From a virus: 64,000 nucleotides of DNA. The notes beneath the pieces are model-generated. The model made no database searches. It worked only from the letters and a program-made list of their open reading frames with translations, and was not told where the DNA came from. Below are positions 15,903-62,708 of the stretch, piece after piece. The stretch is taken from positions 1 through 64,000 of IMG/VR virus record IMGVR_UViG_3300028195_000197; one strand, given 5' to 3'. Every line of letters begins with the position of its first letter. Position 1 is the stretch's first letter. The position numbers and the translations under genes were made by a program.

Positions 15903-15907
15903 TCCAA

Positions 15908-15996
15908 AACAAATAGCGGCTAATGAAATTCGAGTGTTTGCTTATGACACAAGTTCACTAACCGCTATTTGTTCTCGAAGTCTTATGTCATAAGCA
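15908..15996 (-). other. Structured leader with three crossing complementary pairs
   Basis: On the minus strand the order is P1 TGCTTATGACA (15996-15986), P2 TTCGAG (15979-15974), P3 AACAAATAGCGG (15973-15962). The exact complements then follow in the same order: P1' (15949-15939), P2' (15934-15929), P3' (15919-15908). All 29 pairs are Watson-Crick. The last arm ends 6 nt before the GIY-YIG start codon, so P3 could control its translation. Confidence 0.7.
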
Positions 15997-16001
15997 TAAA
16001 G

Positions 16002-16030
16002 AGTATACCATTAAAATAAAAAGAGTGCAA
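16002..16030 (-). promoter_or_regulatory. Sigma70-like promoter for the GIY-YIG gene
   Basis: -35 TTGCAC (16030-16025) lies within the 3' arm of the capsid terminator, followed by a 17-nt spacer and -10 TATACT (16007-16002). The predicted start falls at the first helix of the structured leader. Confidence 0.6.
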
Positions 16031-16047
16031 GAAATTCTTGCACTCTT
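16021..16047 (-). terminator. Terminator after the major capsid gene
   Basis: A 13-bp perfect inverted repeat AAGAGTGCAAGAA / TTCTTGCACTCTT is followed on the minus strand by TTTTTATTTT. It lies 25 nt past the capsid stop. Confidence 0.9.
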
Positions 16048-16071
16048 AATCTAAATCGGACTAATCTTATC

Positions 16072-27628: not shown

Positions 27629-27660
27629 ACTATATCACAGTGTCAAGATATAAACATTAA
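27629..27660 (-). promoter_or_regulatory. Promoter of the packaging/head operon
   Basis: Minus strand: TTAATGT (27660-27654), 19 nt, TATAGT (27634-27629) in the context TGTGATATAGT. It diverges from the early promoter at 27804-27835 across a very AT-rich gap. Confidence 0.7.
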
Positions 27661-27803
27661 TATAAGATTAGAGTTTTAAGGGGTTATTTATTAGTTAAAA
27701 TTAAGTTAATCTATTAATAACATACTTATTATAGAATCTACAAGGAATTTAGTATATTTATTAATGTAATACTAACAAATACAACAAAATTCTCATGTTA
27801 TTT
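27661..27803. other. AT-rich gap between divergent early and late promoters
   Basis: This is 143 nt of very AT-rich DNA without a frame of coding quality, containing several TTAAT and TTATTA steps. It separates the leftward head promoter from the rightward early promoter. It could be a regulatory hub or DNA-unwinding region; I see no clear repeat array here. Confidence 0.4.
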
Positions 27804-27835
27804 TAATAAAAGTGTCAAGAATATATGATAGAATG
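27804..27835 (+). promoter_or_regulatory. First early promoter
   Basis: TTAATAA (27804-27810), 19 nt, TAGAAT (27830-27835) preceded by TGA (extended -10). It begins the whole rightward early region. The ATG at 27841 starts only 5 nt after the -10 box. Confidence 0.65.
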
Positions 27836-27840
27836 GGTTT

Positions 27841-27933
27841 ATGTCACAGAGAACCTTATTAGTATCTCCCCCGCAATCAACATCTCTCTGTGACGGAATT
27901 TGTGTTGGTTGTTGGGGAGATATTAATAAATAG
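27841..27933 (+). CDS. Possible 30-aa leader peptide
   Basis: An ATG 5 nt past the -10 box opens a 30-codon frame, with a product beginning MSQRTLLVSPPQSTSL and ending with three Cys (CDGICVGCWGD). It lies entirely on the switching RNA structure at 27843-27929 and stops 9 nt before the next start. It could be a leaderless leader peptide whose translation selects between the two helices, or simply a chance frame. No ribosome-binding site exists. Confidence 0.35.
   Translation: MSQRTLLVSPPQSTSLCDGICVGCWGDINK
27843..27929 (+). other. Leader with two mutually exclusive long helices
   Basis: Helix 1 pairs GTCACAGAGA (27843-27852) with TCTCTGTGAC (27885-27894). Helix 2 pairs 27856-27871 and 27874-27882 with 27914-27929 and 27903-27911, 25 pairs with two G-U. 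The arms alternate (1, 2, 1', 2'). With only about 3 nt between arms both cannot form fully. The TAGGAG site for the gene at 27942 follows the last arm. Confidence 0.7.
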
Positions 27934-27941
27934 GAGTAGAG

Positions 27942-28160
27942 ATGAAAATTTTTAGTGCTAGTATTCTAAACAAGACAGGTGTAATTATTCCAGAAGGGCA
28001 TTATTTTGGAGTAATGAGAGAACATACAGTTTCTTTTGTGTATGCATCTAACATATATACTTTTTTGGTAGCAGATAATGTTACAGGAATAGATGTTCTT
28101 GTAGATATAGAAATGAAAATTGAAAATGGACAACAAACTTTTATAGTGGACACATTATGA
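27942..28160 (+). CDS. Hypothetical protein, 72 aa
   Basis: First full-length gene of the early region, with TAGGAG placed 6 nt before the ATG. It is predicted to be an all-beta small protein (TGVIIPEGHYFGVMREHTVSFVY...). It ends in an ATGA overlap with the membrane-protein gene. Not recognised. Confidence 0.7.
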   Translation: MKIFSASILNKTGVIIPEGHYFGVMREHTVSFVYASNIYTFLVADNVTGIDVLVDIEMKIENGQQTFIVDTL

Positions 28161-30874: not shown

Positions 30875-30906
30875 TTAATGTTTTAACTCAAATAAAGTGG
30901 TATTAT
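30875..30906 (+). promoter_or_regulatory. Phage promoter TTAATGT-N19-TATTAT
   Basis: TTAATGT at 30875-30881 and TATTAT at 30901-30906 in the GTGGTATTAT context. Transcription would begin just before the structured leader at 30919-31004. Confidence 0.7.
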
Positions 30907-30918
30907 ATATCTAACATC

Positions 30919-31004
30919 TTCTCCTTTGATGTGTTGGGTACGCAAGACAGACTTAGTAACTTTCTGATAGGAGCTACTAAGTCTGTCTGCATCAAATAGG
31001 AGAA
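30919..31004 (+). other. Nested stem-loop leader that can hide a ribosome-binding site
   Basis: Three nested stems: TTCTCC (30919-30924) with GGAGAA (30999-31004); TTTGATG (30925-30931) with CATCAAA (30990-30996); and a 14-bp stem (30945-30958 with 30975-30988) closing a 16-nt loop that contains AGGAG. The anti-SD at 30919 can pair with either the loop AGGAG or the downstream GGAGAA. Confidence 0.7.
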
Positions 31005-31038
31005 ATCAATTTAATATTTTACATGGTGTAAACTACTT

Positions 31039-39974: not shown

Positions 39975-40202
39975 ATGAACTGTAACAGATGCAAACATAG
40001 AGAATATACACTATGTAAAAACCCCAAGAATTTCCAGCCTCGCTTTAGGCAATATAATCGTGTGAAGCAGTTGAGCAAGGTGAACTTCCCAATCCCCCCT
40101 GTATGGTGTAAAGGATTCGAGCCAATGTTTACTATTATCTTACAGGGAAGTGATTTTTCTGTACCTTGTCCAAGTGATCCCCCGCATTGGGAAATTCTCT
40201 AA
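39975..40202 (+). CDS. Cys-containing small protein, 75 aa
   Basis: CNRCKHREYTLCKNP at the N-terminus gives a three-Cys knuckle with VWCKGFEP later, a likely zinc site. AAAGGAG precedes the ATG. It is the last gene before the candidate ncRNA. Confidence 0.62.
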   Translation: MNCNRCKHREYTLCKNPKNFQPRFRQYNRVKQLSKVNFPIPPVWCKGFEPMFTIILQGSDFSVPCPSDPPHWEIL

Positions 40203-40209
40203 TCCAATA

Positions 40210-40241
40210 TTAATCTTCTATAATAGATTTAATGTTATTAT
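40210..40241 (+). promoter_or_regulatory. Promoter of the candidate ncRNA
   Basis: TTAATCT (40210-40216), 19 nt, TATTAT (40236-40241). The predicted start near 40248 coincides with the first base pairs of the RNA's closing stem. Confidence 0.7.
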
Positions 40242-40246
40242 ATAGT

Positions 40247-40456
40247 TAGTGATGGCGGTGTGGAAAGCTAGTCGGTAACGTCTAGGCGACTTGGAGACAC
40301 ACAGCCAAGAGAGTTGTGAAAGACTGATATTGACATTGTGCATGGTAAGTCGGTTGAGTAACTACCCAAAGGCGTAAGAATAAGCACAATGCACAGAAAA
40401 TACGAAAGTATGCCTAATAGCGGGTTCACGCAGGATTAGCGACCTGCCCATCACTA
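40247..40456 (+). ncRNA. Candidate structured RNA of about 210 nt, family unknown
   Basis: A 9-bp closing stem TAGTGATGG (40247-40255) / CCATCACTA (40448-40456) brackets a region with no credible frame. Internal helices include GTGTG/CACAC, AGTCG/CGACT, CATTGTGC/GCACAATG (8 bp), ATAC-GAAA-GTAT with a GNRA loop, and GCAGG/CCTGC. AGGC/GCCT can cross the 8-bp helix. A phage promoter is positioned to start exactly at the closing stem. It does not look like tRNA, tmRNA, RNase P or a self-splicing intron. Confidence 0.65.
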
Positions 40457-40480
40457 GGAATTATTTTATAGGAGAATTAT

Positions 40481-40786
40481 ATGGAAGATAAATACGTGGA
40501 AGTGGAAGTTTATGGGACAGTAACTATTCCTGGCACATTCTATGAAGGGTTTGCGGAGTGGTATTATTTACTACACCCTCGTCCAGTGGAAAGAGATAGC
40601 TGGATGTCGGATGACACTTACATGTTCCATGTAGTAAGTGTGCGAGGTAAGCCTCACGATATTATAGTAAAAGGGGCATTTCTTATAAATTATCATGTAG
40701 CAGGAAAAAAGATTGATATAAAAGATGTGTCATTACAAGAACATTTAGACTTATTTGGTTCAGAAGTAGAAAAGGAGAAAGAATAA
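40481..40786 (+). CDS. Hypothetical protein, 101 aa
   Basis: ATAGGAG precedes the ATG, directly after the ncRNA, so it may share its transcript. Beta-rich (VEVEVYGTVTIPGTFYEGFAE). The TAATG overlap couples it to the putative ssDNA-binding gene. Confidence 0.65.
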   Translation: MEDKYVEVEVYGTVTIPGTFYEGFAEWYYLLHPRPVERDSWMSDDTYMFHVVSVRGKPHDIIVKGAFLINYHVAGKKIDIKDVSLQEHLDLFGSEVEKEKE

Positions 40787-41589
40787 TGAAATATTCAAAA
40801 GGTAATGGTGGTGGGGGAAAATGGGTTAGCGGTAAGGCTCGTTTTGAAGAACGTAATGGAACATGGAAAGTTATCTTTGCTCCAAAGAAACAAGGTGATG
40901 AACCTAAGAGCTATAAATTTCCAGATTCCTTGCTTCCTGAATATCCAGAGAAGGTTGAGATTGGGACTAAATACTTTGTAGTTATTGTTCTTGAAGCTGG
41001 TGCTGATGGAGAAGCTACTAGCAAAGTAGAAAAAGTCTCTGATATTCGCCCACTTATGTGGGTAGATGAAAAGATGAAGATTGTAGATTGTACTCGTGAA
41101 GGCAATAAGCCAGAAGGTACACCTAAATTCTATTCAAAGAAATCTACTTACAAAGAAGACGAAGAAGTTCACATGGTAAACTGGATGTTTGAATTCCAGG
41201 AAGGTGATTACAAAGGTGTACGAGTTCCTTATAATGTACATTATCGCTTTACGGCAGATGAGAACGGAGAAGCTGTCTACGATTTCTCGGAATATGTCTA
41301 CAATCTTCCCCAAGCAACTCGTGTCCATCAAATAGTAAATTTCTACGATAAGATGTTGGGAGTGTTGGACACTCCGATTGTATGGGAAGAAGATGGAAAC
41401 ATCATTCCTACTCTCTATGGTCGCATTTTGGCAGCGGATAAAACTTTCCTAGTCACAGGTGTAAATGGTTGGATTGACGATTTGGAAGTAATTGATGTTC
41501 CTGAACCTGCTCCTGAGCCTGATGTAGAGAAAGAAGACCACACTGTAACTGACATTCATCCAGAAGACGAATTACCAGAAGAATGGTAA
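40786..41589 (+). CDS. Putative ssDNA-binding or replication accessory protein, 267 aa
   Basis: It has a Gly-rich N-terminus (KGNGGGGKWVSGKARFEE), a beta-rich body, and a C-terminal acidic tail ending DIHPEDELPEEW. The acidic tail and its place just before primase and helicase genes fit an SSB-like protein. No OB-fold motif is certain. It is followed by a strong terminator. Confidence 0.55.
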   Translation: MKYSKGNGGGGKWVSGKARFEERNGTWKVIFAPKKQGDEPKSYKFPDSLLPEYPEKVEIGTKYFVVIVLEAGADGEATSKVEKVSDIRPLMWVDEKMKIVDCTREGNKPEGTPKFYSKKSTYKEDEEVHMVNWMFEFQEGDYKGVRVPYNVHYRFTADENGEAVYDFSEYVYNLPQATRVHQIVNFYDKMLGVLDTPIVWEEDGNIIPTLYGRILAADKTFLVTGVNGWIDDLEVIDVPEPAPEPDVEKEDHTVTDIHPEDELPEEW

Positions 41590-41649: not shown

Positions 41650-42528
41650 ATGGCTAAAGAAAACCCAACACTACAAAGAGAGTTATTTGATTTGTTAGAT
41701 GGAGCATATTGGCTCGATAATTCCCGCTACTTTGCTTGCTACTGCCCGATAGAATCTCATGCTAAACAAGCTCTTATGGTTTATGTAGATGGTTGTTGGT
41801 GCGCTTCTTGTAATCGCTCATATTCCCTTGAGTACATAAAGAGTAAATCTTCTTCCCTGCCAACATCATATCGTCCCACGATAGTAGAATACAGAACACT
41901 TCCTAGATGGAGACAGTGGGAAAAGAGATATGGAGATTTGCAGGGGATCGCTGATGCAGCACATAAAAATCTTCTAAAGATTAAAGCCACTTATTTCAAA
42001 AATCGTGGATTAGAAGGGTATATAAAGAAAGCCCATTACGGTCTTATGGATGGATTTGCTGTTATTCCTGTATTTGATAAAGAACATAATGTGATTGACA
42101 TAGTGTGTAGGTCTATCAAACAGCAAAATGTGAAATATGCGGTAGCTAGTATTTCAGAGAATGAAATTCGTCCACTGTATTGTTTAGATTGGGACTTAGT
42201 GATGAGAAGTCAGAAAGTCTATGTAGTCTTTGGGATTTTCGATCTCACAGCTTTTGACATTCTAGGATTGCCTTGTTTAACTGGGATCACTGGTAAGTCC
42301 ATAAATCCTTCCCTGTTCGATGAATTTCCAGGAAAAGAGTTTGTAATTGTCCCCGATAGAAACGAAGAAAAAGATGCTTACAAGTTGGCTTCAAATTTGG
42401 GATGGCGAGGTTCAGTATTGAGAGTGAACTATCCTTTCAAGATAAAAGATATGGATGAGTTGAGACGGAGTACATCTCCTAATGAATGGAAGCGTCTTTA
42501 TGAAGGCGAATGGAGTAAAGATGAGTGA
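41650..42528 (+). CDS. DNA primase, DnaG-type, 292 aa
   Basis: An N-terminal zinc finger (CYCPIESHAKQALMVYVDG with WCASCNRSY) is of the CHC2/CxxC kind. The C-terminal Toprim region shows VYVVFGIFD, GLPCLTGITG and VIVPDRNEEKD, with Asp-rich metal motifs. The catalytic Glu of Toprim motif I is replaced by the FGIFD form. Expected to synthesise RNA primers. It has no ribosome-binding site and starts 12 nt after a terminator, so its start signal is unclear (possibly leaderless from TATTTT). Confidence 0.82.
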   Translation: MAKENPTLQRELFDLLDGAYWLDNSRYFACYCPIESHAKQALMVYVDGCWCASCNRSYSLEYIKSKSSSLPTSYRPTIVEYRTLPRWRQWEKRYGDLQGIADAAHKNLLKIKATYFKNRGLEGYIKKAHYGLMDGFAVIPVFDKEHNVIDIVCRSIKQQNVKYAVASISENEIRPLYCLDWDLVMRSQKVYVVFGIFDLTAFDILGLPCLTGITGKSINPSLFDEFPGKEFVIVPDRNEEKDAYKLASNLGWRGSVLRVNYPFKIKDMDELRRSTSPNEWKRLYEGEWSKDE

Positions 42529-42748
42529 TACTATTGAAACTATGAGCTATGAACAACTTAGACATTATCTAATAACGGAAGGATGTGAACCTAGTCTATA
42601 TAAACGTGGGCATTTATATAGAGCGCATGTAAATAGGGGGGGTAATTTTTGGGAAGACGCAGAAACCCCCATAAAAGCCTTGCGGAAAGCATCTATGTTG
42701 TGGGTAAATAGTGGTAGATGGGAAAGAGCGACAAAGGATACATTATGA
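42521..42748 (+). CDS. Hypothetical protein, 75 aa
   Basis: ATG 42521 overlaps the primase stop and is preferred to an upstream ATG inside primase. A compact protein with SYEQLRHYLITEGCEPSLYKR and a Trp-rich C-terminus. Lies between primase and helicase, so a replication role is possible. Confidence 0.62.
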   Translation: MSDTIETMSYEQLRHYLITEGCEPSLYKRGHLYRAHVNRGGNFWEDAETPIKALRKASMLWVNSGRWERATKDTL

Positions 42749-43983
42749 ACTGGTACGATCAAAGCCAAATAGTTTTCGGACTTATAGCCTTAAAGAAAAT
42801 CAAGCATCACTCAGTTCTTCCAAAGAATCTCTATCCTCCATTTGATACGCCAGTGGCGTACATGCACGAAAATCCTGAATGGGAAGTTGAAGACCTCCAC
42901 CTCAAGTTCCAATCTAACGAGTGGGAAATTGCTATGAACGCCGCTCGTAGTCTAAATGGTACAGCAACCAGTGTAAACTGGGCGAGAGACCTGGAAAAGA
43001 TGCGTATTATGTGGGAAACAGGGGCTAAACTCACTAAAACAGGAGATAAACTACAGAAAGGGGAAGATGTAGAAGTTCTTTCTATTGTTAGTGACTTGAA
43101 GATGATGTCCGTGACCGAGGAAATAGGTCTGCATGTGGCATCAGAAGTAGATTTGACAGATGTTGTAGCATTGCAGAAATGTGGATGGAAAGAAATAGAT
43201 GAAACATTTGGTGGAATACCTGCCAGTGGCCCTCTTGTAGTTTATGCTACCACTAAAACTGGTAAATCTTTTTGGATTTCAAAACTTATTAATGAGTTCC
43301 TGCATTATTATCCTGAAAAACGTGCTACAGTGTTTTCGTTAGAAATGGCATATAAGCGGTATCTAAAGCGTTCATTTGATATGTACCCATCACTTAAAGA
43401 AGTTTCAGATCGTTTACTTGTGACCAGTAGAGCATCTAATATGAAAGAAGTTATAGCGATTACCTCCACAGAACCCACAGACCTGGTGGTTATTGATGGC
43501 ATTGCTGATGCTGTAATGGGAGAAAAGTCTGCATCAAAGATGGATGAAGCCTGGAGTGATGTAAAGAGAATGGGTAGAATGTTAGAAATTCCAGTAGTAG
43601 CAGTAGCACAGCCTAATAGAGCATCTAAATTCAATTCTCAAGAGCAATTTATAGGCCGTTACGATATTGAATGGTCGGGAGCGGCAGAAAACGCAGCAGA
43701 AATGATGATAGCACTTCAATATCTAGGCACTAATGCTAGGATTGAAAATAAAATCTTTCCTGTAGTTGAAGATTCTTATTACATGATAAATTATTTCTCC
43801 CGTGACAGTGAGAATATTGGAGCAGTTATTTTAGATAAGCATGTATCTTCACCAGAAGGGAGACGATTATGGGAAAGTTCTGCTCATGGCATAACAAAAA
43901 ATGGTGAGATTGTTCCTCAACTCTATAAAGAAGGATTGTACAAAGCAGAGGGAAGTAATTCTAGTAGTAGGGCAAAACGATGA
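42745..43983 (+). CDS. DnaB/RecA-fold replicative helicase, 412 aa
   Basis: Walker A PLVVYATTKTGKSFW near residue 165, Walker B DLVVIDGIADAV near 250, followed by VVAVAQPNR (motif H3-like Q) and R-finger candidates. ATG 42745 has AAAGGA 8 nt upstream and overlaps the previous stop; the longer frame is rejected. It lies directly after primase, the usual pair, and precedes polymerase. Confidence 0.85.
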   Translation: MNWYDQSQIVFGLIALKKIKHHSVLPKNLYPPFDTPVAYMHENPEWEVEDLHLKFQSNEWEIAMNAARSLNGTATSVNWARDLEKMRIMWETGAKLTKTGDKLQKGEDVEVLSIVSDLKMMSVTEEIGLHVASEVDLTDVVALQKCGWKEIDETFGGIPASGPLVVYATTKTGKSFWISKLINEFLHYYPEKRATVFSLEMAYKRYLKRSFDMYPSLKEVSDRLLVTSRASNMKEVIAITSTEPTDLVVIDGIADAVMGEKSASKMDEAWSDVKRMGRMLEIPVVAVAQPNRASKFNSQEQFIGRYDIEWSGAAENAAEMMIALQYLGTNARIENKIFPVVEDSYYMINYFSRDSENIGAVILDKHVSSPEGRRLWESSAHGITKNGEIVPQLYKEGLYKAEGSNSSSRAKR

Positions 43984-44509: not shown

Positions 44510-44931
44510 GAGAGCTAAAGTTTCGAGCTTGGTATCATAAAGGAACTTATTGCAAAGAGCCTAAGATGTACTGGTTTGATTTGATGTGGGGGAATACTTC
44601 GCAGCAAGGGTCTGGATGGATTGGAATGTTGCCCATTGGAGAAACAAGAAAATACAGAATGATGGGGGATAACAGAAAGCAGATTGACCCTGATGATTGT
44701 GAGATTATGCAGTTCACTGATTATCAAGACATGAATGGCGTTGGTATTTGCGAAGGGGATTTGGTTCAAGATGAACAATATATCAAAGAGATCGTTTTCC
44801 ATAAAGGTGTATTTACAGTAAAGAATACAGATTCAAGGTTTGCTTTACCTGCATCTGGCGACTATCTCAGAGTATATGGACATAGCCTTGAAGTTGTCGG
44901 AAATATCTACGAGAATCCTGAATTATTATGA
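44506..44931 (+). CDS. YopX-family protein, 141 aa
   Basis: It begins MRELKFRAWYHKGTYCKEPK, has IMQFTDYQDMNGVGICEGDLV and ends VVGNIYENPELL, the beginning, middle and end signatures of the phage YopX family. Function is unknown in the family. GAAGGAG precedes the ATG; it overlaps the polymerase gene by 4 nt. Confidence 0.85.
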   Translation: MRELKFRAWYHKGTYCKEPKMYWFDLMWGNTSQQGSGWIGMLPIGETRKYRMMGDNRKQIDPDDCEIMQFTDYQDMNGVGICEGDLVQDEQYIKEIVFHKGVFTVKNTDSRFALPASGDYLRVYGHSLEVVGNIYENPELL

Positions 44932-46661
44932 AATCAATTAGAGACCTGCCCATAAAAATCATACATGAAATCCCTCCTGTACTCAGTAGCAAAGAAAAAT
45001 GTGCAATTGATACAGAATGGTTTTTGATGGATAAGGATAGACTTCATCGTCCTGTACTCACTGATGGCTCACCAAATGGATTTTTAGCGTGTGTGACTTT
45101 CTGCTTCAATGGTGAGGATGTGTATTTCGTAACCAATCCTGATGATGTTCAGGAAGCAATGGACAATGTATCAGAGGCTACACAAATTTACGCAAATTGC
45201 AAATTTGATCTTGTTCATCTTCGTAGACATGCTCATATTCCAGTTAGAATAAATAAACTTTGGGATGTAATCACACTAGACCGCATCATGTGGTCTGGTC
45301 TCTATTCCAGCTTTACTTTAGCTGACATTACTAGACGCAGATTACACATGCACCTTCCTAAAGAAGACAGGAAGGATTTTGCTAAAGCGGATAAACTTAC
45401 TCCTGAATTGGAGCAGTATAGTGCCTACGATCCTGTGGCAACGTGGCACGTTTATCAACATCAAATCCGTGACGTTCTAAAGAATGACCCTAATGCTCTA
45501 AAACTATGGGCAGAAGTAGACCTTCCTGCTCTAAATACCGTTATGTCCATGAAAGGTTTCAAAGCCAATAAAAATTTGTGGTATGAAATTGCAGATGAGA
45601 ACATGGAAAAGAAAACTTCTCTGCAATCTAAATATGATATAAATCTACGGTCAGCAAAACAAGTAGGGGAATTATTAGCTTCTCAGGGCATTGAACTTCC
45701 TAAAACCGCCAAGGGAAACTACTCTACAGCAATAAAGACATTAGAAGGTATGGAAGACCCTAATGAAACTATTTTAGACCTGATTGAACTATCATCTCTG
45801 AAATCTAAGACAACTACTTATGGTAGAGGATTTATGGAGAATTCTGTAGAGCCAGATAACAGGATTTACGCAGACTTCAATCCTCTTCGAGCTGCAACTG
45901 GTCGCTTCGGATGCTCAAAACCTAATCTACAAAACGTACCTAATAAATACACTGACCCTAGATATAGAGAGTGCTTTATAGCAGGAGAAGGAAACGTGTT
46001 AGTAGTAGGAGATTGGTCATCTCAAGAACCTAGAGGTGGTGCATATCTAGCACAAGATCAGACTATGATAGATATTTTCAATGACGATAAAGATATTTAC
46101 ATTGAATCTGCTCGTCTTATGTTTGGATGGGAATTGACTAAAGATGACCCTAGAAGAAGTCACCCCATCAAGCCAGTTGTTTTGGGCGCATTTTATGGTC
46201 TGACGAAACATGGTCTATTCAATAACAACCAGATACCTAAAGATGAAGGTGAGAAACTTCTCAATAAGTTCTTTGAAGTGTTTCATGGAGTAGCTGATTG
46301 GATTGATGAAATGAGAGATGGTAGAGAGTATGTTGAAACTATCATGGGCAGAAAGTATTGGCTAAATCCTTATGACTACAAGAGCAGGAACAATGCTTGC
46401 AATTCTCCTGTACAAGGGTCTGCCAGTGACGCTATGAAGATGGCTGGATGGGAGTTTGTGAAGCAATGGGGTGACTTAGAACACTCTCCTATCGTAAACT
46501 TTGTCCACGATGAAATGATAATTGAAGTTGCAGAAGAAGATAAAGATAGAGCCATGACGTTACTAGACGAATGTATGGTGTCTGTAGCTGAAAAGATGCA
46601 CCCAGGTGTCAAAGCTCGTGCAGATATAGGGTTCGGGCAAAATTGGAGTGCAAAAGCGTAA
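44928..46661 (+). CDS. Family A DNA polymerase, 577 aa
   Basis: The N-terminal 3'-5' exonuclease begins CAIDTEWFL (Asp/Glu of Exo I) and has later acidic exo motifs (YDPVATWHVYQ). The polymerase part shows RAATGRFGCSKPNLQNVP, motif A VLVVGDWSSQEPRGGAYLAQD split, motif B KPVVLGAFYGLTKHG, and motif C NFVHDEMIIEV. No 5'-3' exonuclease domain, as usual in phages. It replicates the genome with the primase and helicase just upstream. Confidence 0.93.
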   Translation: MKSIRDLPIKIIHEIPPVLSSKEKCAIDTEWFLMDKDRLHRPVLTDGSPNGFLACVTFCFNGEDVYFVTNPDDVQEAMDNVSEATQIYANCKFDLVHLRRHAHIPVRINKLWDVITLDRIMWSGLYSSFTLADITRRRLHMHLPKEDRKDFAKADKLTPELEQYSAYDPVATWHVYQHQIRDVLKNDPNALKLWAEVDLPALNTVMSMKGFKANKNLWYEIADENMEKKTSLQSKYDINLRSAKQVGELLASQGIELPKTAKGNYSTAIKTLEGMEDPNETILDLIELSSLKSKTTTYGRGFMENSVEPDNRIYADFNPLRAATGRFGCSKPNLQNVPNKYTDPRYRECFIAGEGNVLVVGDWSSQEPRGGAYLAQDQTMIDIFNDDKDIYIESARLMFGWELTKDDPRRSHPIKPVVLGAFYGLTKHGLFNNNQIPKDEGEKLLNKFFEVFHGVADWIDEMRDGREYVETIMGRKYWLNPYDYKSRNNACNSPVQGSASDAMKMAGWEFVKQWGDLEHSPIVNFVHDEMIIEVAEEDKDRAMTLLDECMVSVAEKMHPGVKARADIGFGQNWSAKA

Positions 46662-49506: not shown

Positions 49507-49540
49507 ATTGGACAAAATTAGTCCAATTCAACGTTTAGCC
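49501..49540 (+). terminator. Two-part hairpin after the recombinase operon
   Basis: Inner stem AATTGGAC / GTCCAATT (49506-49513 with 49521-49528) and outer GGCTAAA / TTTAGCC (49501-49507 with 49534-49540). It lacks a clean T run, so termination is likely but not certain. Confidence 0.55.
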
Positions 49541-49601
49541 AAATACCCGTAGAAAATTTTTCCAGATTTTGCTCTTTTCGCAATATTTCATTGAGACAAA
49601 A

Positions 49602-49778
49602 ATGCTTTACACATATAAATGTACATCATGTAAACATCAATTCACTTATAATAAAAAAATAAGTGATGAAACCAAACCTCTCTGTCCAGTATGTGATTTG
49701 AAGACAGAGAGAGTTTTTACTTCCGTTCCTGTAATATATAAAGCAAATGGATTTTATTCTAAGGATAACCAAAAATGA
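49602..49778 (+). CDS. FmdB-like zinc ribbon protein, 58 aa
   Basis: From ATG 49602 it reads MLYTYKCTSCKHQF, the usual FmdB start (M-x-x-Y-x-C-x-x-C-x-x-x-F), with CPVCDLKTERVF later. Putative transcription-regulator-type zinc ribbon widespread in phages. Overlaps the methyltransferase by 4 nt. Confidence 0.72.
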   Translation: MLYTYKCTSCKHQFTYNKKISDETKPLCPVCDLKTERVFTSVPVIYKANGFYSKDNQK

Positions 49779-59167: not shown

Positions 59168-59213
59168 CCCCCTAATGATACTCTAAAAACTAGGAATTTT
59201 CTATTCTTGAAAT

Positions 59214-59453
59214 CTACCAAGAATCATAAGGGTCTCTATCATCTCTTTCTTCTTTTTCAAATAAGTCATCTAACCACTTCACAATTTTGTATTTTGTTAA
59301 CCGATACAGCTTTAAAAATTTCAGGAATTTCTTTTCCTTATCAGAAAAATGAAACTCAATAAGTTCTCCTGTCATTAAATCATACCCTTCTCCAGAAGGT
59401 TCTGGCATAGACGCTTCTAGTATCAAATACTTTAGCCTAGATAATCTTTTCAT
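59214..59453 (-). CDS. Hypothetical protein, 79 aa
   Basis: Charged helical protein (LIEFHFSDKEKKFLKFLKL) ending in an acidic, Asp/Glu-rich tail. It is first behind the promoter at 59489-59520. Possibly another tail assembly factor. Confidence 0.6.
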   Translation of the reverse strand: MKRLSRLKYLILEASMPEPSGEGYDLMTGELIEFHFSDKEKKFLKFLKLYRLTKYKIVKWLDDLFEKEERDDRDPYDSW

Positions 59454-59488
59454 TCCATCTTCCTTTTACTAACAAATGTCCAGCCTTT

Positions 59489-59520
59489 ATAATAACACAA
59501 TTTACATGGTTGAAGATTAA
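59489..59520 (-). promoter_or_regulatory. Promoter for tail assembly genes
   Basis: Minus strand: TTAATCT (59520-59514), 19 nt, TATTAT (59494-59489), with a TGTGT context. It reads into 59453. Confidence 0.7.
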
Positions 59521-59601
59521 AATTAGATGAGATTATTGATGTGTCTTATTTGGCATATCCCCATTACTTTTATAGCCATTATGCACCTCCATGTGCGATA
59601 A

Positions 59602-59654
59602 GGGGCAGGGGTGATGAAGGAGCATCACCCTTTTCGGCATCCATGCCTAGCCCC
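59602..59654 (-). other. Three-way-junction RNA element, copy B
   Basis: GGGGC / GCCCC ends, with internal hairpins GGCAT-GG-ATGCC and GGGTGATG / CATCACCC. A -10-like TATAAT lies just upstream. Downstream a GCAC-ATGGAG-GTGC hairpin holds a GGAG site before an 18-codon frame that ends quickly. Copy A is at 61029-61081. Confidence 0.6.
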
Positions 59655-59691
59655 TATTTGGTATATTATACTACAAAACTGCTAACTCATG

Positions 59692-60318
59692 TTAAGGAAG
59701 CGCACTCAAATCCGACCTGATGATAACTCCAAACCGCTGATCTGATGGTTTCGTAGAATCTGCATATCCTCTAAGGACGAAGGATTGTGCCCAGGAATCT
59801 CCATAAAGCATCTGTAACTCGGCTGGCTCTACAGGTTGCGCTTTATGTAAGTGAATCAATAAGTAATCGCCAGTGTCTTCATTATACACGCGAGGTGCGT
59901 ACACCATGTAATATTGGTTGTTATTGAAACCACCAATGCCAACTTTTTCCGTTCCTGTCCCTACAGTAGCAGTAGAGAAACCTGCTAATTTAGTATAGAT
60001 AGAAAGCGGGAAAAGATTCTTAGTGGTAAACGCAAGGTCTACATAATCCCGTGTCTGAATAGTGCCTTTTACACCATCAGCATCACAACGAATATCGTTA
60101 GCAGTAACACCTTGCATAAAGGTTACATCGGTTACACATGCTAAACCGATATAAGGATATGAAGATGTACCACTCATACCCCAATAATAACCATCGCCAT
60201 CAGGGTTATTTAGGGGGTCTGCAAGATAATCTTGTAAATAAATATTTGGCGCACCATTAATATAAATCTCTTCTTGGGAAGTTGAACTTCCGATTGGTGT
60301 TCCTGTAATTAAGGACAC
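59692..60318 (-). CDS. Major tail (tube) protein, 208 aa
   Basis: GTG start with AGGAGG 6 nt upstream. Beta-rich, Gly/Ser/Thr-rich sequence of the length of phage tail tube proteins. It precedes chaperones and tape measure, as expected for the major tail protein. The stop of the HNH gene overlaps its ribosome-binding site. Confidence 0.8.
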   Translation of the reverse strand: MSLITGTPIGSSTSQEEIYINGAPNIYLQDYLADPLNNPDGDGYYWGMSGTSSYPYIGLACVTDVTFMQGVTANDIRCDADGVKGTIQTRDYVDLAFTTKNLFPLSIYTKLAGFSTATVGTGTEKVGIGGFNNNQYYMVYAPRVYNEDTGDYLLIHLHKAQPVEPAELQMLYGDSWAQSFVLRGYADSTKPSDQRFGVIIRSDLSALP

Positions 60319-61095: not shown

Positions 61096-61135
61096 ATTTT
61101 ATTCTAATCTATTAGGATATGCAATGTGGTATTAT
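61096..61135. promoter_or_regulatory. Bidirectional promoter cassette, copy 2
   Basis: Forward: AATCT 61106-61110, 19 nt, TATTAT 61130-61135. Reverse: TTGCAT 61124-61119, 17 nt, TAAAAT 61101-61096, then TATAAT nearer the HNH leader. Separates the HNH/tail operon from the methyltransferase genes. Confidence 0.75.
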
Positions 61136-62668: not shown

Positions 62669-62708
62669 ATTCTATTCTAATCTACTCAAGTATGCAATGT
62701 GGTATTAT
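62669..62708. promoter_or_regulatory. Bidirectional promoter cassette, copy 3
   Basis: Forward: AATCT 62679-62683, 19 nt, TATTAT 62703-62708. Reverse: TTGCAT 62697-62692, 17 nt, TAGAAT 62674-62669. Drives the Dam-like gene one way and 62639 the other. Confidence 0.75.

Follow-up and report, generated by a model that had tools for sequence, protein, structure and literature searches.

A GC-rich noncoding element between a phage-family promoter and replication genes, probably a 5′ leader

Locus, composition and promoter family

The window analysed here is the whole stretch of DNA under study, 64,000 bases from an IMG/VR virus record whose full length is 67,247 bases. On its plus strand a 278-bp intergenic gap, bordered by ORFs of 75 and 101 aa, holds an element of 210 nt, and genes for replication proteins follow downstream. 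The features of the locus are:

39975-40202 (+): 75-aa ORF with its own Shine-Dalgarno (SD) sequence, the upstream border of the gap
40208-40242 (+): phage-family promoter, with the element TTAATCTT at 40210-40217 and the extended -10 TGTTATTAT at 40233-40241
40247-40456 (+): GC-rich putative leader element without an ORF
40470-40474 (+): SD sequence AGGAG of the first downstream gene, beginning 14 nt past the element
40481-40786 (+): 101-aa ORF, the first gene after the element, matching no family
40786-41589 (+): 267-aa ORF with an acidic tail, no family match
41650-42528 (+): primase-like protein (phrog_47, E 4e-9)
42718-43983 (+): DnaB-like helicase (PF03796 and phrog_19)
44928-46661 (+): family A DNA polymerase (PF00476, E 1e-65)

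For the 101-aa and 267-aa proteins AlphaFold yielded models of too low a quality for use (pLDDT 35 and 40), and an SSB role for the latter is only a guess.

The GC content of the element is 46.7%, while that of the genome is 36.8%, which places it in the top 0.8% among windows of equal length. Its flanks are AT-rich (44 nt at 16% GC and 24 nt at 21% GC). The combination of this GC content with AT-rich edges occurs at no other place in the window, by criteria that were chosen post hoc. Purines make up 60% of the plus strand of the element, which suits an RNA made from that strand and is no proof of one. A preliminary description of the locus had seen no credible reading frame, and codon usage agrees with it: gene-like usage is absent from every frame of the 210 nt on either strand. 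All ORFs of at least 12 codons on both strands scored below zero with a single exception, an ORF of 16 codons which scored about zero (the gene mean is +0.135 per codon). By measures other than folding energy the element is real and discrete.

The extended -10 sequence predicts a transcription start at about 40248, at the stem that closes the element. The family to which this promoter belongs was uncovered by listing extended -10 sites in gaps, where TTAAT was found exactly 18 nt before TG. The motif TTAAT-N18-TGnTAnnnT has five exact sites, 27629 (-), 27803 (+), 30875 (+), 40210 (+) and 59489 (-), all of them intergenic; block shuffles gave a mean of 0.8. A stricter form of the motif has four sites against none in 60 shuffles, and other spacings of TTAAT to TG produced zero or one match. 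Variant copies with CTAATCT and ATGTGGTATTAT occur elsewhere in the phage and in its relative. The sequences are therefore good evidence that a phage-specific promoter family exists and that the element lies directly behind one of its members. The phage-type promoter of the preliminary description, with its start at the closing stem, is strengthened by these five sites where 0.8 would be expected.

The CTAATCT...ATGTGGTATTAT promoter also forms a near-identical triplet on the plus strand (913-944, 61104-61135 and 62677-62708). The genome tail has one more copy and the related contig G001 has two.

Predicted folds of the element and its sister leaders

The main helices of the element are:

40247-40255 (+): 5′ arm of the closing stem, TAGTGATGG, pair probability 0.88 in the 210-nt fold
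40448-40456 (+): 3′ arm of the closing stem, CCATCACTA, pairing with 40247-40255
40334-40341 (+): 5′ arm of an exact 8-bp long-range pair, CATTGTGC, mean probability 0.82
40384-40391 (+): 3′ arm of the same pair, GCACAATG, pairing with 40334-40341
40400-40411 (+): GNRA hairpin ATAC-GAAA-GTAT, probability 0.71
40370-40376 and 40409-40415 (+): candidate 7-bp pseudoknot, AGGCGTA with TATGCCT, from the helix list
40420-40447 (+): possible 3′ hairpin GCGGGTT...GACCTGC beside the closing stem, from the helix list

The 9-bp closing stem, the exact 8-bp pair, the GNRA hairpin and all other helices listed in the preliminary description are present in the sequence or its fold, and the closing stem is lengthened by one G-U. 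The crossing AGGC/GCCT pair that it had considered possible grows to 7 bp, including one G-U. In this longer form it crosses the 8-bp helix, and as some of its bases also belong to the GAAA hairpin, the pair and the hairpin are mutually exclusive. Near the 3′ end, the helix 40420-40426/40441-40447 competes with 40267-40273/40434-40440. In predicted folds that start at 40248 and run to at least 40520, the closing stem is mostly lost.

The part of the earlier claim of a structured RNA that did not stand is folding beyond chance, which was not found for the 210-nt element by MFE z, random windows or helix shuffles. Two determinations of the MFE gave z = -1.35 and -1.47. Random windows of the same phage (n=220) had a mean z of -0.54, and 25% of them reached -1.35 or lower. 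Dinucleotide shuffles of the gap equalled the best single helix in 13% of cases and the best two nested helices in 8%. The opposite strand of the element scored better than the plus strand (z -2.5 relative to its own shuffles). Because the energy statistics are at the level of chance and the closing stem is labile in longer folds, the fold drawn for the element is hypothetical.

Two other members of the promoter family are followed by structured leaders:

27803-27834 (+): sister promoter with the family motif
27841-27931 (+): sister structured leader, a 15-bp stem with an inner stem, z -5.7
30875-30906 (+): sister promoter with the family motif
30913-31004 (+): sister structured leader, a closing stem of about 13 bp with a 14-bp perfect hairpin inside, z -5.5

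For each of the two leaders, none of 200 shuffles folded as well. The leader at 27841-27931 is directly followed by an SD sequence at 27932 and then an ATG; between its 5′ end and the loop of its hairpin there are 10 nt of complementarity, which make a pseudoknot likely in the leader region 27803-27942. In the other (region of interest 30875-31012) the closing stem buries AGGAG. Neither leader matched Rfam. The element and the two sister leaders have no words of 10 nt or longer in common, and their sizes differ too. Behind the remaining two family promoters, 27629 (-) and 59489 (-), a comparable leader is absent.

Near its 3′ end the element is similar to the beginning of the polymerase gene: 40435-40451 (ATTAGCGACCTGCCCAT) and 44937-44953, read in the same sense, are identical at 16 of 17 positions. 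The match was noticed post hoc, and shuffles reached it in 4% of cases anywhere in the window and in about 1% in start regions. It is only marginally significant and may be due to chance; an RNA site common to the element and the polymerase message is conceivable.

Other predicted RNA structures occur in the window. An int-alpA RNA (RF02996) is found at 59586-59657 (-), scoring 40.5 bits with a cut-off of 35.8 and with TATAAT just upstream. The segment that holds it (about 59180-59744) is absent from G001 and therefore looks like a recent insertion or loss. A gap at 15903-16071 (-) separates a 395-aa ORF from a gene for a GIY-YIG endonuclease. It contains a long and nearly perfect hairpin (z -7.3) together with an extended -10 (TGGTATACT) and a second hairpin that is terminator-like, an arrangement that is reminiscent of the leaders silencing phage homing endonucleases. 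The gap at 49507-49774 (+) also has a strong fold (z -3.7).

The preliminary description had matched the element to no known family by eye. Rfam 15 (4227 models) likewise yielded no family at the gathering cut-off or at E up to 10; the best chance matches, of 18.4 and 12.1 bits, were far under the cut-offs. A likeness to RNase P core motifs, seen by eye, was dropped as it had no cmscan support. ARAGORN detected no tRNA or tmRNA in the window. DNA similarity searches of phage and plasmid collections returned nothing real, and DNA-word scans (three over viral contigs, one over genome contigs) gave isolated seeds with no similarity past the seed. A set of 398 genomes, all from the phylum to which one chance match belonged, contained two short matches, both within protein genes. 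No homologue of the element was thus found in the collections scanned, which may omit records very near the window. Neighbour proteins led to one close contig only (L002/L006, 22.7 kb), which lacks the RNA region because it begins inside the helicase.

A probable cis-acting leader and its alternatives

The ribosome site of the 101-aa gene follows the element closely. The region 40457-40480 is AU-rich (21% GC) and the ATG at 40481 is about 24 nt past the element, with no intrinsic terminator between the element and this gene. The SD has a mean unpaired probability of about 0.7 in predicted transcripts whose 5′ end is at 40248 or within the element. In modelled read-through transcripts the value is 0-0.5 and varies with the assumed 5′ end. 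The SD of the transcript from its own promoter is predicted to be open in all fold windows tried, and the promoter-dependent opening of the SD would be a modest effect in these models.

The element is probably the cis-acting 5′ leader of the mRNA that carries the block of replication genes, a reading to which we assign a probability of roughly 0.55. Transcription would start at about 40248 from the phage-specific promoter family, the nascent leader would fold, and the RNA would continue into the 101-aa gene and then the replication genes. The leader would control the replication mRNA in cis, most likely post-transcriptionally, with the folded 5′ region beside the AU-rich ribosome site acting as an operator, bound by a protein if any, and/or as a shield of the 5′ end. 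In favour of this reading are the family promoter with its exact spacing, the missing terminator, the SD and ATG that come next, the predicted openness of this SD, the replication genes behind them, the structured sisters, the lack of a coding signal and the GC edges. Against it are the unexceptional fold, the lack of sequence in common with the sister leaders, the failure to find a homologue in the collections scanned and the length of 210 nt, which is long for a simple operator.

The reading that ranks second, and is unlikely, is a stand-alone phage small RNA that starts at 40248, is ended or processed near 40456 and acts in trans on host or phage targets. The predicted promoter of its own, the GC-rich noncoding island and a closing stem whose 5′ arm lies at the predicted start and whose 3′ arm lies at the GC edge would all suit such an RNA, but it would have neither an intrinsic terminator nor an Rfam match, and the SD of the next gene is only 14 nt downstream. 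Antisense targets in the phage were also sought and rejected, since the longest matches were 11 nt, about the level of chance. The abundant phage ncRNA proposed by the preliminary description, perhaps a ribozyme, regulator or defence RNA, therefore gives way to the cis-acting leader, which is the simpler reading because there is no terminator, the SD lies so close and two sister promoters have structured leaders. A separate RNA could still arise if the transcript is processed. Overall, the earlier observation is partly confirmed and its interpretation is partly supported. A noncoding gap with visible stems is not necessarily a free ncRNA; here the promoter, the absent terminator and the adjoining ribosome site indicate a leader.

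A promoter-proximal antitermination site that acts in cis on RNA polymerase is improbable. HK022 put and lambda nut are structured leader RNAs just downstream of phage early promoters, and folded leaders do follow several promoters of one family in this phage. However, unlike put and nut, the three leaders share neither sequence nor size as a repeated site would, no similar element stands behind each early promoter, and no link between leaders and terminators was found.

Less probable again is a riboswitch that senses a ligand, or an attenuator, belonging to a class not yet described. Its length and position would fit and the element has alternative helices that compete, but there is no Rfam match, no terminator hairpin and no homologue found, and the SD is not clearly sequestered. 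An ordinary untranslated spacer with chance stems and no special RNA function is about as improbable: the fold statistics are no better than those of shuffles, but the sharply bounded GC-rich block, in a genome that is compact and AT-rich, and the strong sister leaders argue against it. A role as a DNA element, for example a replication origin that unwinds at its AT-rich flanks and carries inverted repeats, is the least probable of all, as the AT-rich flanks and the nearby primase and helicase are set against an absence of iterons and a cumulative GC-skew turn that falls at 27638, in a divergent promoter region (the skew also tracks gene direction).

If the cis-acting leader is the right reading, a phage about which little is known, and which has hardly any relatives in the searched collections, couples its own promoter family to folded leaders before key gene blocks, and an RNA layer of control would lie over phage replication. 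A bolder form is doubtful, in which the element, about 210 nt long and folded into a defined tertiary structure, would represent a new class of structured phage RNAs and belong to a promoter-linked set of structured leaders controlling the replication genes of this phage lineage.

Comparison with known phage leaders

In the leaders of T4 gene e, soc, I-TevI and Aeh1 mobE, translation is set by the promoter used, and in T4 a simple hairpin produces this dependence (PMC3014915). The present locus would be similar in that the predicted read-through RNA hides the SD and the RNA from its own promoter exposes it. Unlike in the T4 cases, this is a prediction only and depends on the assumed 5′ end.

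T4 gene 43 has as its RNA operator a small hairpin, located at the gene itself, through which this replication gene is controlled by its own product (PMC3014915). Leader-level control, as proposed here, and the 16/17 resemblance of the 3′ end of the element to the polymerase gene start are the points of likeness. The difference is that the element lies 4.5 kb upstream of the polymerase gene.

The leader operator of gene 32 in T4 and RB69 mediates autogenous repression by gp32, and the T4 pseudoknot, of about 28 nt, lies ahead of the SSB gene itself (PMC535899). The fold considered here is far longer (about 210 nt), the first gene behind it encodes a 101-aa protein of no family, and the element has neither demonstrated UUAAA repeats nor a known binding protein. 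Shared with gene 32 would be a folded 5′ leader ahead of an A/U-rich SD stretch (40457-40480) and of replication genes; the crossing helix is a candidate for a pseudoknot in this leader. By analogy, T4 genes 32 and 43 would be the closest working models for how a leader could control the replication genes of this phage.
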